Shown here: positions 7,925 through 14,109 of the stretch, one piece after another | How positions within the stretch are numbered: the first letter of the stretch is position 1 | Layout: each line of letters starts with the position of its first letter | From: Phycisphaerae bacterium | GTDB taxonomy: Bacteria > Planctomycetota > Phycisphaerae > UBA1845 > PWPN01 | Assembly (NCBI GenBank): GCA_016928855.1 | Contig: JAFGKA010000191.1 | Span: 1-48,992, forward strand | DNA length: 48,992 nucleotides | Reading direction: 5' to 3' | Program-made: the position numbers and the translations under genes | Notes under the pieces: model-generated | Told to the model about the DNA's origin: nothing | The model's database searches: none | The model's input: the letters and a program-made list of their open reading frames with translations, nothing else

Positions 7925-9784
7925 ATGCCGGAGCACAACGGAATGCGTGACTCTGCTGCAGGCTTGACAGAGAACGACCTCCTCCAGCCTGGCGCGCCGG
8001 CATCGCCCCCGACAAGCGGCACCCGATTCCAGCGATGGTCTGCGGCCTGTTTCCCATTGCTGCTTTGGTTCCTCGCCGCGTACTTCTTCTGGGGACGTCT
8101 GGGCAAATGGCTCGACGACTACTGGCTTTCCGTGCGCGATCCAGTCACCGGTGCCTACGAATTCCCTGTCTGGTCGTGGACGCAGTGGCCCTTCTTCTAC
8201 CGCCCCTTTCACCTGACCTTCGTGCAATCCGCACAAACGCTGCTGTGGAACCATGATGGACTTCTTCATCTTCTCAGCGCCCTTGTTCACGGTGCCGCAA
8301 CACTGCTGCTGTGGCGAGTACTGAGAGACGTAACCCGGACGGCGCACGCAGCCGCCGCCGGAGCGATGCTGTTCCTCACCTTTCCGCTGAGCTACGAAAA
8401 TATCCTCTGGCCGGCAGCGATTTCCACCGGCATCGCAACGGCGACATTCCTGGCGATGTTGCTGGCATATCTCCGCATGATTCGCGATGGCTGGACGCGG
8501 CGTGATGTTATTCTTATGACACTTCTCGCGTTCACGATCCCGTGCTGGAATGAGCAACCGGCCACAGGTATTGCGGCGCTTCCGCTGCTGTATTGGTCTA
8601 TGTACAAGAGCCGCCTTCCCTGGAAGCAACATCTCGCACAGGCCTTCATTCCGGCTCTGGCGTGCAGTCTCGCCTGCCTGATCTACCTGCTCCTTGTCCA
8701 CGCGACGGTGCCGCCCACGATCCGCGGAGGAAGCGGATCCCTCGCATCCGTCAGCAGACTCGGCAGTCGATTCGCCGCGGTATCGCATGAGGTGCACCTC
8801 AAACTGTTCGGTGCGTGGATCGCGCACATCGTCCGAGGCGGTCTTGCCCAAGGCCTGCAGGTGATGACCTTGCCACGATCGCTGCCGTGGTTGTGTGCGC
8901 TGTCGATCGCCGGCATTGCATGGTGGAGGCACTGGTGCGCACGACCGCTTGCGCCCCGCCCACACGGCTGCCCCCGCGGCCGGCGCCAGTGGGCGACTAC
9001 CGTCCTGTTCGGCCTCGCCCTGTTCGCGCTCGGCTGGATGCCCCTGGTCATGATTCGGGGACAGATTGTCGAACCTCGCATGTGCTACTACCCAACGGTG
9101 GGCCTTGTGTTCGCCGGAGCTGCTGTGCTGGATTGGCTTGGCGCCACACTCGCTGCCTCCCGTATCACCGCGTTCCTGTTCAAGCGCGGGGTAGCGGTGG
9201 CCGTGCTTGGCACATCGCTGGTCGGTGCCGTGACGCTTGTAGGAACACAGAAGCGTCTCCGCGAACAGTATGATCTGGACCAAAGCACCATGAGAGAACT
9301 CACACAGTTGGTACCGACACCACCTCCGGGCACCGTGTTCATGCCGCTCCGTGTCGAGCCGACCGCCAACACGGGTTTCTCGTACTTCGATCGGTTCGCA
9401 CATTGCGCTCTTGCGCAGCCCTGGTCGGCCAGGGCAATCGTACGGCAGACCTACCGCCGAAATGACCTCTTCAGCACGCCGTGTTCGTGGTGGGGGCCGC
9501 CACCGTTGCGGGATGCCGATGCATCCGGCGTACGCTGCGATGTCGTCTTCAGGCCGCGGCGAGAAGCGCACCACGGCACCAACGAACGCATCCTGTGGTC
9601 GCAGACAATTCCTTTTGTGCTCGAAGCCGGCGGACACGTGCGTCTGATAAGCACCGTTACGTTGACACCTTCGGACGAAGACGCTGTAAACGTTGACTTT
9701 CCCTACGTGCGCACATTGCTCGACGCACACGGATTGCCCGAACAGACCTGCACTCTGCAAGGAAGAGGCACGCAATCACCATGA
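7925..9784 (+). CDS. Polytopic membrane protein, GT-C glycosyltransferase-like
   Basis: Predicted inner-membrane protein of 619 residues with roughly ten hydrophobic spans (such as FPLLLWFLAAYFFW, AAAAGAMLFLTFPLSY, AFIPALACSLACLIYLLLVH, VLFGLALFALGWMPLVMI) and a C-terminal soluble portion of about 190 residues. The first loop after span 1 carries DDYW, like the acidic loop motif of GT-C enzymes that use lipid-linked sugars. No closer family is recognised. The frame is open from 7439, but that stretch overlaps the previous glycosyltransferase and reads as low-complexity shadow. ATG 7925 is the first start beyond that gene; its ribosome site is weak and 7943 is an alternative. The stop overlaps the next start as ATGA. 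Probable role: periplasmic decoration of the exported glycan (inference). Confidence 0.75.
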   Translation: MPEHNGMRDSAAGLTENDLLQPGAPASPPTSGTRFQRWSAACFPLLLWFLAAYFFWGRLGKWLDDYWLSVRDPVTGAYEFPVWSWTQWPFFYRPFHLTFVQSAQTLLWNHDGLLHLLSALVHGAATLLLWRVLRDVTRTAHAAAAGAMLFLTFPLSYENILWPAAISTGIATATFLAMLLAYLRMIRDGWTRRDVILMTLLAFTIPCWNEQPATGIAALPLLYWSMYKSRLPWKQHLAQAFIPALACSLACLIYLLLVHATVPPTIRGGSGSLASVSRLGSRFAAVSHEVHLKLFGAWIAHIVRGGLAQGLQVMTLPRSLPWLCALSIAGIAWWRHWCARPLAPRPHGCPRGRRQWATTVLFGLALFALGWMPLVMIRGQIVEPRMCYYPTVGLVFAGAAVLDWLGATLAASRITAFLFKRGVAVAVLGTSLVGAVTLVGTQKRLREQYDLDQSTMRELTQLVPTPPPGTVFMPLRVEPTANTGFSYFDRFAHCALAQPWSARAIVRQTYRRNDLFSTPCSWWGPPPLRDADASGVRCDVVFRPRREAHHGTNERILWSQTIPFVLEAGGHVRLISTVTLTPSDEDAVNVDFPYVRTLLDAHGLPEQTCTLQGRGTQSP

Positions 9785-11286
9785 AACGAAACGCAGACCA
9801 CACCCGGTTCAACGCATCGTCAGTCCCTGTGGTAACACTCGCCATCGTCAGCTTGTGGCTGGCAGCCGGCTGCACGAGCGGCCCGGATTTCTCGAAGCCG
9901 ATGGACATCCGTCATGCCGACGCGGAAACGATCGTGACATTCGACATGGACGGCGACGGCTGCGCCGATTACTGGCAGTACCAGGAGTCGAATGGCCGCA
10001 AGCGGGCGCTGGCCTATACGATCCCGCTGGTCGGAACGACCGGCGAGCGGATCGAACTGGACGACGTCGATCCGGCGAGCTGCCCGCATTTCCTGATCGC
10101 GCTGGACGGCGTGCCGTTTGACGTGGTTGATCGCCTGTATCGCGAAGGCCGGTTTCGCCTGTTCTATCCGCCGCGCCGCCTGATCTGCTGTTTTCCGAGC
10201 ATGACGGATCTGGCGCTGGCGCAACTGTTTCACGCTGGGCCCTGCCTGGCGTATGAAACCTTGTATTACGATCGGGCCGCCGGCCGGATGAGTGACGGCA
10301 ACTCGGTCTATCTCAATGCGCTGAACTCGCCCTGGTTGCCGAAGGTGGATTACCGGTGTTCGTACTGGTGGGACGCGAAGGCGTATCTCGACCCCAAGGC
10401 CGTCTTCAATCACGAACTCCGCGGCATCACCAAGACCTTTGAGGCCGTCGAGGCGGGCGAGGCGGCCGGCTACTCGGTCGGCACGGCCGGCCTTGGGACG
10501 CGCGGGGGGCGTGACGCGATCCGTGAGTACCTCATCGAGATTGACCAACTCTGCGAGCAAATCGTCTGGCAGCGCCGCGGCCGCGTGAAGCTCACGCTCG
10601 TCGCCGATCACGGCCACAATCTGACGGAGTGCAAACGCGTTTCGCTGAAGGCCCCGCTGACGAACGCCGGCTACCGGGTGACGAAGTCACTGCGCGAGCC
10701 GCGCGATGTGGTCGTCGTTGAGTATGGACTGGTCACGTATGCCGCGTTGTATACCGACGACGCAACCGGTGTGGCTGCTTGTCTGTTGGGCCTGCCGGAG
10801 GTCGAGCTGGCCTTCTACCGAGCTGACGACAGCGTCGTCGTTCGCGATGCCGGCGGTGAAGCCGGGATCACCAAGCGGGACGGCGGCTATACCTATGACG
10901 TGCGGAGCGGCGATCCGTTGCAGTTGGCGCCCATCATCGCGGGCTTGCAGAAGAATCACAAAGTCACCGCGGACGGAACGATCGACGATACGGCGATGTT
11001 TGCCGCCACCGCCGAACATGTCTATCCCGATCCGCTGGCCCGCATCTGGGGCGCGTTTCACGACGTGGCCACGATGCCGCCGGACGTCGTCGTGACGCTG
11101 CGCGACGGCGCGTGCCACGGCTCGAAGTTCTTCCACGTCATGATCGGCACGGTCAAGAGCACGCACGGCTCATTGAACCGGATCAACTCGACCACCATCG
11201 CCATGACGATGCTCGGCGAGCTTCCAGAGGTGATGCGATCGACTGACGTGAAATCGGCACTGGATCGCTTGCGCGGTAGCCGGTGA
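9781..11286 (+). CDS. Lipoprotein, probable alkaline-phosphatase-superfamily enzyme
   Basis: Exported lipoprotein of 501 residues. The signal peptide ends in a clear lipobox, LAAGC with Cys31. The mature part contains ALDGVPFDVVDRL (possible metal Asp), FPSMTDLAL with a Ser/Thr in the usual nucleophile area, and LVADHGHNL, an Asp-His pair typical of the superfamily. The last 60 residues include DGACHGSKFFHVMIGTVKS with further histidines. These motifs are only partly canonical, so family membership is probable rather than certain. The start shares ATGA with the membrane protein upstream, and it is the last gene before the terminator at 11443. Together with the cytoplasmic phosphatase-like protein at 3534 it brackets the operon, suggesting a phosphorylated glycan modification acted on outside the cytoplasm. 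Confidence 0.72.
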   Translation: MKRNADHTRFNASSVPVVTLAIVSLWLAAGCTSGPDFSKPMDIRHADAETIVTFDMDGDGCADYWQYQESNGRKRALAYTIPLVGTTGERIELDDVDPASCPHFLIALDGVPFDVVDRLYREGRFRLFYPPRRLICCFPSMTDLALAQLFHAGPCLAYETLYYDRAAGRMSDGNSVYLNALNSPWLPKVDYRCSYWWDAKAYLDPKAVFNHELRGITKTFEAVEAGEAAGYSVGTAGLGTRGGRDAIREYLIEIDQLCEQIVWQRRGRVKLTLVADHGHNLTECKRVSLKAPLTNAGYRVTKSLREPRDVVVVEYGLVTYAALYTDDATGVAACLLGLPEVELAFYRADDSVVVRDAGGEAGITKRDGGYTYDVRSGDPLQLAPIIAGLQKNHKVTADGTIDDTAMFAATAEHVYPDPLARIWGAFHDVATMPPDVVVTLRDGACHGSKFFHVMIGTVKSTHGSLNRINSTTIAMTMLGELPEVMRSTDVKSALDRLRGSR

Positions 11287-11442: not shown

Positions 11443-11483
11443 GCCGCACGGGTGCTGGACGGACGCACTTGGGCGGCTTTTTT
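11443..11483 (+). terminator. Intrinsic terminator after the glycan export operon
   Basis: GCCGC (11443-11447) pairs with GCGGC (11473-11477), and GTGC (11452-11455) pairs with GCAC (11465-11468). The intervening ACGG/TTGG strands can form one C-G pair, two G-U wobbles and one mismatch. The stem is followed immediately by six T (11478-11483). It lies 157 bases after the lipoprotein stop and 86 bases before the chorismate synthase start. It is preceded by the perfect palindrome GCCTGCCGGCAGGC at 11431-11444. Confidence 0.65.
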
Positions 11484-11568
11484 GTGGCAGAACCGTAGCC
11501 GCGCTGGCGCGTCGAGGCGCGGAGGGCGTCGCGGCCCCGGCGCCGATGGCGAACCGGAGGATCAAGAC

Positions 11569-12909
11569 ATGATCGGTTGTCATTTAGGTCGCATATTCCA
11601 GGTTTCAGTGGCTGGCGGCTCATACCAGGATGGCCTGACGGCCGTGGTCCAGGGCGTGCCCCCGGGGATGCTGCTGACGGAGCAGGAGATCTACGGCGAT
11701 CTCCTGCTGCGCAAGCCCGGCGCCGACGAGCTGTCGTCGCCGCGGAAGGAGCCGGATCTGCCGGTCATCTACACGGGCCTGAACGCCGCCGACACGATCG
11801 AGGGCGCGGGCAACCGAAACCATACGAACGGGACGCCGCTGACGATCCTGATTCCGAATCTGGATCGTCACTTCATCCACATCAAGCAATACCAGGATAC
11901 GAACCGGACGCCGCGGCCCGGGCATGCGTCGTATGCGTCGTTCGTGAAATACGGCCCCGACGACGACTCGATCGGCGCCGGCATCTTCAGCGGGCGCTAT
12001 ACGTCCACCATCGTCGCGGCCGGCTACGTCGCGAAGAAGATCCTGGCCCTGTGCGGCATTCGGGTGTACTCGTTCATCAAGGAGCTTGCCGGCGTGCGGA
12101 GCGACGACGTCGCGCACGAGAAGGCGCTCGACTATACGAACCGCTACAAGCAGATGCGCCACGATCTCGATCCGTTCTATCAGCGGGTCTACGTCCAGAA
12201 CCGCATCACGCCGGAGATGCGATTCCTGGAGAAGGCCCGGATTCTGGCCGAGATTGAAGGCGAGATTGACGACATTCGCGCGATGGCCCCGCGCATGACA
12301 CACGACGAGATCGGGAAGCGATACGGCGTGCACGCCGTCGTCAACTGCCCGGATGTCAAAGCGGCGGACGCGATGGTGGACGCGGCCAACGCGGTCACAC
12401 GGACCGGCGACTCGACGGGCGGCATCGTCGAGGTCGTGGCCCTGGGCGCGCCGACCGGGCTGGGCGAGCCGGTGTTCTCGAAACTCGACGCCGAGCTGGG
12501 CCGGATGATGGGCATCGGCGCGGTCAAGGCCGTCGAGGTCGGCGCGGGCTTCGCGGTGAAGGACATGACGGGCATTCAGTCGAATGACGCCATGCATGCC
12601 GAGGGCGGCAAAGTGGTCTTTGATTCGAATCAGGCCGGGGGCATCACCGGCGGGCTCTCGACGGGCCAGCCGATTATCGTGCGCCTGGCCGTCAAGCCAA
12701 CGCCGACGATCGACAAGCCGCAGCACACAATCGACAAGTATACACTGGAGAACAAGCAGCTTGCGGCAATCACACGGCGCGACGCGACGATCGTTGGTCG
12801 GATCTGGCCGGTCGCCGAGAACTTCACGGCCCTGGTGCTGCTCGACAACCTGATCGCGCACTACGGCTACCAGACGCTCCGGGCACAGGTGGAAAAGGCC
12901 GTGAAGTAG
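11569..12909 (+). CDS. aroC: Chorismate synthase homologue, strongly divergent
   Basis: Chorismate synthase makes chorismate from EPSP using reduced FMN. The 446-residue product aligns along its length with AroC: GVPPGM, RKPG, SPRKEPD, RPGHA at 116-120, GAPTGLGEPVFSKLDAELG, AVKAVEVGAGF, NQAGGITGGLSTGQPI and KPTPTI are all family hallmarks. However, the N-terminal GESHG motif, whose His is catalytic in studied enzymes, reads GGSYQDG (16-22). The GGGRSSARET loop reads GAGIFSGRYTS, the Arg of RRPGxxR is Glu, and RHDP reads RRDA. It is also longer than the usual 350-400. It may be a divergent lineage-specific enzyme or a paralogue with another role. GGAGG at 11556-11560 fixes the ATG; the longer frame from 11452 starts inside the terminator. 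No other aromatic genes are adjacent. Confidence 0.85.
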   Translation: MIGCHLGRIFQVSVAGGSYQDGLTAVVQGVPPGMLLTEQEIYGDLLLRKPGADELSSPRKEPDLPVIYTGLNAADTIEGAGNRNHTNGTPLTILIPNLDRHFIHIKQYQDTNRTPRPGHASYASFVKYGPDDDSIGAGIFSGRYTSTIVAAGYVAKKILALCGIRVYSFIKELAGVRSDDVAHEKALDYTNRYKQMRHDLDPFYQRVYVQNRITPEMRFLEKARILAEIEGEIDDIRAMAPRMTHDEIGKRYGVHAVVNCPDVKAADAMVDAANAVTRTGDSTGGIVEVVALGAPTGLGEPVFSKLDAELGRMMGIGAVKAVEVGAGFAVKDMTGIQSNDAMHAEGGKVVFDSNQAGGITGGLSTGQPIIVRLAVKPTPTIDKPQHTIDKYTLENKQLAAITRRDATIVGRIWPVAENFTALVLLDNLIAHYGYQTLRAQVEKAVK

Positions 12910-13026
12910 CTCGGCGTCGCCTCGAAGCGGCCCGTCGTGCGCGCCGATGCCTCACGTCGTGGAACAAATGCGGCGTGATGGCGCAGGCGGGCGTGTCGTG
13001 CTTTGTGGTCGGGTGGAATCTGCGTC

Positions 13027-14109
13027 ATGCCGGACTTCTCACAAGGTGACGCTCCGAACCCGGACCGTCCCCATCGGCGGCGGCCGCGCTACCGCGGCAC
13101 ACACCCGCGCCACTTTGACGAGCGATACAAGGAACACCAGGCGGAGACCTATCCCGAGATCGTCGACGCCGTTCGTGCCCGTGGAGCGACGTTGGCCGGG
13201 ACGCATGTGCCCGTGCTGCTCGCCGAGGTGATGGCTGCGCTGGCGCCGGCCGAGGGAGATCGCATCGCCGACGCCACGCTCGGCTACGGCGGGCACGCGG
13301 CCGAGTTCCTGAAGCATATCGGTCCGACGGGTTGGCTGTTCGGCTTCGACGTCGATGCCGCGCAGCTCGGTCGCACGCAGCAACGGCTCGCCGCCTCCTT
13401 TGCCAATATCAGTGTGCATCGCAGTCACTTCGCCGGCATCGGCAAGATTCTCGCGGCGAACAGCCTCGACGGTTACGACATCGTTCTGGCCGATCTCGGC
13501 GTCTCCAGTATGCAGGTCGATGATCCCACGCGCGGGTTCAGCTACAAGCACGACGGCCTGCTCGATATGCGCATGGATATGCGGCGATCCAGGACCGCCG
13601 CGGATTGGCTTGCGCTCCTGAGCGCTGAGGAACTCGCCAAGGCGTTGGCCGAGTTGGCGGACGAGCCCGATCATGCGCGCATCGCAGAGGCCATCGTCGC
13701 CCGGCGCGACCGGCGACCGATCCGCCGGACATCGGAGCTGGTCGAGTTGATTTTCAGGGCGAAAGGCCTGACGAGGCGGATGTGGCGCGAACAGACGGGG
13801 CGGGATCCGCACGCCCTGCATCCGGCGGCGAAGACATTTCAGGTGCTGCGCATCCTCGTCAACGACGAACTCGAAAGCCTCAAAGGGTTGCTGCGTATCG
13901 CGCCGACCTGCCTGCGGGCCGGCGGCCGCATCGGCATCATCAGCTTCCACAGTGGTGAGGATCGGCTGGTCGAACGGGCTTTTCGTGACGGCGTGGAACA
14001 GGGCCTTTACGCCGCGTGCAGCGACGAGCCGATCACGCCCGGACCGCGCGAACGCTTCGACAATCCGCGGAGCCGTTCCGCGCGATTCCGCTGGGCGCGC
14101 CGAAGCTGA
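13027..14109 (+). CDS. rsmH: 16S rRNA (cytosine(1402)-N(4))-methyltransferase
   Basis: SAM-dependent methyltransferase that modifies C1402 in the ribosomal P-site. The 360 residues show HVPVLLAEVMAAL, the SAM loop DATLGYGGHAAEFL, DIVLADLGVSSMQVDDPTRGFSY, LDMRMD, KTFQVLRILVNDELESL and the C-terminal IISFHSGEDRLVERAF, all diagnostic. A basic, Pro/Arg-rich extension of about 55 residues precedes the usual N-terminus, with RYRGTHPRHFDERYKEHQAETYPEI. The ATG at 13027 follows GGTGGA; a TTG at 13003 is in frame but less likely. It stands alone here with no mraZ, ftsL or ftsI beside it, as in lineages with dispersed division clusters. It converges on the dehydrogenase gene with a 42-base gap. Confidence 0.95.
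   Translation: MPDFSQGDAPNPDRPHRRRPRYRGTHPRHFDERYKEHQAETYPEIVDAVRARGATLAGTHVPVLLAEVMAALAPAEGDRIADATLGYGGHAAEFLKHIGPTGWLFGFDVDAAQLGRTQQRLAASFANISVHRSHFAGIGKILAANSLDGYDIVLADLGVSSMQVDDPTRGFSYKHDGLLDMRMDMRRSRTAADWLALLSAEELAKALAELADEPDHARIAEAIVARRDRRPIRRTSELVELIFRAKGLTRRMWREQTGRDPHALHPAAKTFQVLRILVNDELESLKGLLRIAPTCLRAGGRIGIISFHSGEDRLVERAFRDGVEQGLYAACSDEPITPGPRERFDNPRSRSARFRWARRS

Follow-up and report, generated by a model that had tools for sequence, protein, structure and literature searches.

Chorismate synthase (AroC) catalyses the final step of the pathway shared by the aromatic amino acids. The roles of several of its residues have been described in ordinary enzymes: the histidine of the RPGHA motif (His106 or His110) donates a proton to flavin N1 and its loss costs about 20-fold, while an aspartate (Asp339 or Asp367) primes flavin N5 through water, its loss costing 300–600-fold (PMC3509576; for the aspartate also PMC2386126). 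A further histidine, that of GESHG (His17), lies near the phosphate of EPSP and probably gives the departing group its proton (PMC7144000, PMC2386126); this histidine and the aspartate were stated to occur across all known species (PMC2386126). Arginines were also considered as alternative acids (PMC12697075), and the roles of the EPSP-binding arginines were analysed in the fungal enzyme (PMC11633415). Nothing relevant was found in the literature on chorismate synthase in Planctomycetes/Phycisphaerae.

The gene, its family and its predicted fold

The window, i.e. the whole stretch of 48 992 nucleotides of a Phycisphaerae contig that was analysed, contains a gene whose product belongs to the chorismate synthase family and departs from it at several near-invariant motifs. 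The two features that define the gene are:

11569..12909, + strand: divergent chorismate synthase (AroC) gene, 446 amino acids (PF01264, TIGR00033, AlphaFold2 model)
11556..11560, + strand: GGAGG, likely ribosome-binding site for ATG 11569 (direct reading of the sequence)

The reading frame is intact from ATG 11569 to 12909. A longer alternative begins with a GTG at 11452; the ATG start is supported by the relatives, which begin M-x-G-C-[HD]. The protein scores 302 bits against Pfam PF01264 (cut-off 27) and 300 bits against the TIGR00033 aroC equivalog model (cut-off 212), so that automatic annotation probably labels it chorismate synthase without remark; it falls 14 bits short of the NF003793 cut-off (307 versus 321 bits). 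An AlphaFold2 (AF2) model based on a 63-sequence alignment, which replaced a poor earlier one from 25 rows (pLDDT 70), has a mean pLDDT of 91 and a pTM of 0.92. When the PDB was searched with this model using Foldseek, the 28 matches at E ≤ 0.001 were chorismate synthases without exception, and comparison with 1QXO, a complex with FMN and EPSP, gave a TM score of 0.81 (by target length) and 3.5 Å. A pseudogene was ruled out by the intact frame and by the conservation of active-site residues across 91 sequences.

Our preferred reading, at a probability of roughly 0.87, is that the product is a true chorismate synthase, dependent on FMN and belonging to a separate subfamily whose phosphate pocket has been remodelled.

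In the same window, positions 9781–11286 encode a putative lipoprotein of 501 amino acids without a Pfam match; its VADHGH motif recalls, by eye, phosphodiesterase/phosphatase-fold enzymes.

Motifs changed and motifs kept

Relatives of the divergent protein were confirmed at 186 loci in genome contigs, of which 80 were kept; 91 aligned subfamily sequences were then compared with 31 canonical ones (from E. coli, several phyla and Planctomycetota). The features of the window gene that this comparison brings out are:

11614..11631, + strand: GGSYQD replacing GESHG, with Tyr19 where canonical enzymes have the phosphate-side catalytic His (alignment)
11710..11712, + strand: EPSP-binding Arg48, kept (R in 91/91); the invariant Arg preceding it is Leu47
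11863..11883, + strand: DRHFIHI, residues 99–105, with subfamily-invariant His101 and His104 (alignment)
11914..11931, + strand: RPGHAS; retains Arg116 (EPSP) and His119, the proton donor to flavin N1, and has Ser121 for Asp (alignment; role of His, PMC3509576)
11974..12006, + strand: GAGIFSGRYTS replacing GGGRxSARETA; Ser141 and Arg143 kept, Arg changed to Ile139 and Glu to Tyr144 (alignment)
12091..12333, + strand: helical insertion, about residues 175–255, mostly absent from canonical AroC (alignment gaps, AF2 helices)
12775..12786, + strand: RRDA; Arg403 and catalytic Asp405 kept (R 91/91, D 91/91; role of Asp, PMC3509576, PMC2386126)

The first-pass annotation, made on the window sequence alone, had reported that GESHG is replaced by GGSYQDG with loss of the histidine, and this was confirmed: residue 19 is Tyr in 91/91 subfamily members and His in all 31 canonical sequences (H19Y), the lost histidine being the phosphate-side one. 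Beside it, the subfamily has Gly17 for Glu and Gln20 for Gly. The reported replacement of GGGRSSARET by GAGIFSGRYTS also proved to be a property of the whole subfamily, in which GGGRxSARETxxR has become GAGIFSGRYTxxI, with Ile, Phe, Tyr and Ile for Arg, Ala/Ser, Glu and Arg fixed or nearly so. The position of Leu47 is occupied by L in 81/81 sequences of the group about 80% identical to the window protein and by L or I in the group of about 60% identity, and Cys323 (E. coli numbering), which follows RHDP, is Thr. Since the motif changes are fixed, or almost fixed, across the 91 relatives, they are not due to chance. Within the insertion, 30–31 of the 31 canonical sequences have gaps at most of the positions that are invariant in the subfamily.

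Two further changes on the same list turned out to carry less weight than was claimed. RRPGxxR does contain a Glu, but ordinary enzymes vary at this position (it is Ser in the canonical AroC of the window genome). RRDA does stand in place of RHDP, but retains Arg and the catalytic Asp; the middle residue of the motif varies in canonical AroC (Ser in 18/31, His in 11/31), and most of the subfamily has RRDP, Ala at the end being the less common state.

The residues kept in 91/91 sequences each are Arg48, Arg116, His119, Arg143, Arg403, Asp405, Ser18 and Ser141. Among them, as mapped by alignment, are the counterparts of the EPSP-binding arginines of the fungal enzyme (R46, R103, R129 and R362, corresponding to Arg48, 116, 143 and 403). 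RPGHA, listed from the outset as retained, does keep its His, with Ser for the Asp that follows. Of the catalytically assigned residues that could be mapped, the phosphate-side His is the sole loss. With the RPGHA His and the catalytic Asp kept, the active site appears to be remodelled on its phosphate side, not dismantled. The columns of His101 and His104 are invariant within the subfamily, His being almost absent from them in canonical AroC, and on this sequence pattern the two residues may be candidates for a replacement proton donor.

Distribution, copy number and genomic context

The divergent proteins are highly conserved and monophyletic: they form one clade (SH-aLRT 100) on a stem of 1.96 changes per column, a length compatible with a change of function. 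Two subclades can be distinguished, one made up of the type with about 60% identity found in the window's own family, the other of the type with about 80% identity, found in Phycisphaerae, Sedimentisphaerales and contigs that binning assigned to Lentisphaerota, Fibrobacterota, Omnitrophota and other groups. Some of these phylum labels may be binning errors; in the tree, two Lentisphaerae and three Fibrobacterota sequences cluster by label. In genome G016, the one AroC match that was seen (L014:886–2241) branches next to the divergent clade (SH-aLRT 94), its placement being unsure because of its long branch. It is a possible evolutionary intermediate, and its sequence suggests that the His to Tyr change came early; when relatives of this protein were sought within its family, they were found in its own genome only.

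In 45 of the 50 genomes reached via its loci (four chromosome-level), the divergent AroC is accompanied by no other PF01264 protein, and the sole-copy genomes include CP070715, CP070728, CP070806 and CP070675. It also stands alone in 23 of the 27 quality-rated genomes of the class (at least 90% complete, at most 5% contaminated). Missing sequence does not explain the absence of a canonical copy, since, among 195 genomes of the phylum with a completeness of at least 90%, just 6 are without any PF01264 protein; a rough Fisher test on sole-copy status, in which genome relatedness is ignored, gave P of about 7e-22. Prephenate dehydratase is present in 27/27 sole-copy genomes and a Chorismate_bind protein in 26/27, the exception being a 1.9-Mb bin. 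To our knowledge, there is no other candidate for the step from EPSP to chorismate. Being the sole copy in many Planctomycetota and some other bacteria, the divergent enzyme very probably works.

The neighbourhood of the gene points to the same pathway. In 59 loci an aroA gene lies close to the divergent aroC, and in 39 of the 83 loci with enough flank it is at most 400 nt upstream on the same strand; the representative of these neighbouring PF00275 proteins that was tested scores above the TIGR01356 AroA cut-off, and in one locus (L142, genome G006) aroK, aroA and the divergent aroC stand in a row. Each sole-copy genome checked has two PF00275 proteins and no more, which we read as an AroA and a MurA, so that the aroA adjoining the divergent aroC is the pathway enzyme. 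A second AroA/AroC branch leading to another product was rejected, the checked sole-copy genomes having only these two proteins.

These data bear on a different reading, in which the protein is a neofunctionalised paralogue that binds EPSP or a related enolpyruvyl compound, carries out a different elimination and yields a product other than chorismate. In favour of such a paralogue are the concerted replacement of about ten residues that are invariant elsewhere, the long stem branch and the fact that the window genome and its family possess a canonical AroC as well. However, most carriers are without canonical AroC and yet consume chorismate, the PF00275 count in the genomes checked leaves no second enolpyruvyl branch visible, and the catalytic Asp, His and Arg residues are kept; we regard a new reaction as improbable. 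The first-pass annotation had reasoned that, were this the only AroC, its mechanism must be rearranged and that otherwise it would be a paralogue with a new reaction. The first part fits the subfamily, sole in most carriers, but not the window genome itself, which has a canonical AroC; the second is unsupported, the subfamily being the sole AroC in most carriers, where it occurs beside AroA and with chorismate users present.

Several loci show additional features. In L094:2995–4599, L107:3254–4861 and L108:3195–4817, a canonical AroC of 534–540 amino acids with a shikimate kinase domain in front is encoded directly upstream of the divergent aroC (PF01202 and PF01264 were shown for L108). Homologues of GTP-dependent PEP carboxykinase occur near the divergent aroC in six loci, including L037:2994–4976, for which the family was shown and where the gene is immediately upstream; it possibly supplies PEP for AroA. 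In G009, a gene of the histidine phosphatase superfamily (L135:4390–5034) lies downstream of aroA in a region with both canonical and divergent aroC.

Such side-by-side arrangements are relevant to the idea that the divergent protein is catalytically inactive and either joins canonical AroC in mixed tetramers or regulates it. Chorismate synthase is indeed a tetramer (PMC3509576), and canonical aroC adjoins the divergent gene in L094, L107, L108 and G009, but most carriers have no canonical partner, and this idea appears very improbable.

A genome search for a canonical aroC located one in the window genome, on contig C599 (477 bits) next to aroK (shikimate kinase), which makes the divergent protein a second copy there. 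Most members of the window family likewise have an ordinary AroC together with a divergent copy of about 60% identity. With canonical AroC also present, there is thus no demonstrable need for the divergent copy in the window genome or in the majority of its family. In such two-copy genomes it could serve as a redundant or conditional isoenzyme, for example under other redox or temperature conditions, a role compatible with the preferred reading and to which we give an even chance. Both copies are intact, the window copy groups outside its own family, as expected of transfer, and no aroA lies beside it; on the other hand, no sequence feature points to a particular condition.

The window protein is 80–82% identical to sequences outside its family versus about 60% to family members, and in the tree it groups inside the 80% type, apart from its own family's copies. 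These identities, together with an assembly contamination of 4.4%, could indicate that the contig derives from another organism and was mis-binned. However, the closest relative of the adjoining rsmH-like gene is that of family member G002 (73% identity) and the next closest is from another family member, so the contig fits the family and only the aroC gene looks foreign. We consider mis-binning unlikely, and the divergent aroC was probably acquired laterally, as judged from these comparisons. A viral or plasmid origin was rejected: viral contigs contained no relative of the divergent AroC, and the plasmid matches were all <60% identical, the annotated ones being ordinary chorismate synthases.

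The rsmH-like gene itself (13003–14109) specifies a further methyltransferase of the RsmH/MraW type, extended at its N terminus; its product is 42% identical to the other RsmH of the genome (C53:6502–7410), and both kinds are also found in several family and order members.

Proposed reaction and comparison with known chorismate synthases

From the homology, fold, kept residues, sole-copy status and pathway context of the relatives, we infer an active enzyme that takes EPSP as its substrate and has replaced one proton donor. EPSP would be supplied by AroA, and its 3-phosphate and C6 hydrogen would be removed by the usual 1,4-elimination assisted by reduced flavin. His119 of RPGHA would protonate flavin N1, Asp405 would prime flavin N5 via water, and Arg48, Arg116, Arg143 and Arg403 would hold EPSP. 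Tyr19 would replace the His of phosphate departure, with co-ordinated changes among its sequence neighbours (Gly17, Gln20, Leu47, Ser121, Ile139, Tyr144 and Ile148), so that the phosphate side is rebuilt and neighbouring charges are removed. The proton may be donated, oriented or relayed by Tyr19, or by His101/His104 of the subfamily-invariant NLDRHxxH loop; alternatively, phosphate might depart without a dedicated acid. Whether the subfamily forms a mechanistically distinct class, in which Tyr or the relocated His101/104 handles the leaving phosphate in a rebuilt, less basic pocket and the general-acid His is not essential, seems to us evenly balanced.

A lineage with Tyr in its sole enzyme is a natural experiment on a very odd flavin reaction and makes the general-acid question directly testable. 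Filters based on signature residues could miscall such organisms as aromatic auxotrophs, and the divergent enzyme may not respond to inhibitors modelled on the basic pocket of ordinary enzymes.

With ordinary AroC (EC 4.2.3.5; PF01264, TIGR00033; e.g. S. pneumoniae 1QXO), the divergent protein shares the whole-chain fold, the RPGHA His, the catalytic Asp, the set of EPSP-binding arginines, the glycine-rich GGITGG region and the pathway neighbours aroA and aroK. It differs by Tyr for the phosphate-side His, by E17G, G20Q, D108S, E130Y and C323T (E. coli numbering) among other changes, and by the helical insertion at about residues 175–255; identity to 1QXO in the structural alignment is about 26%. 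The canonical AroC of the window genome (C599, L001) and the AroK–AroC fusions (L094, L107, L108), whose genes stand side by side with divergent ones, belong to the same family and keep the GESHG His; unlike the divergent copy, the former also keeps GGGRASARET and RHDP. The AroC of G016 (L014) resembles the divergent clade in its Tyr at the His position (GESYGGG), its RRD C-terminal motif and its Thr for Cys, whereas Glu17, Gly20 and, within GRASGRET, the Arg and Glu are unchanged, and its motifs are mostly ordinary. In view of these comparisons, the divergent subfamily is best read as a natural exception to the ‘invariant’ GESHG histidine.
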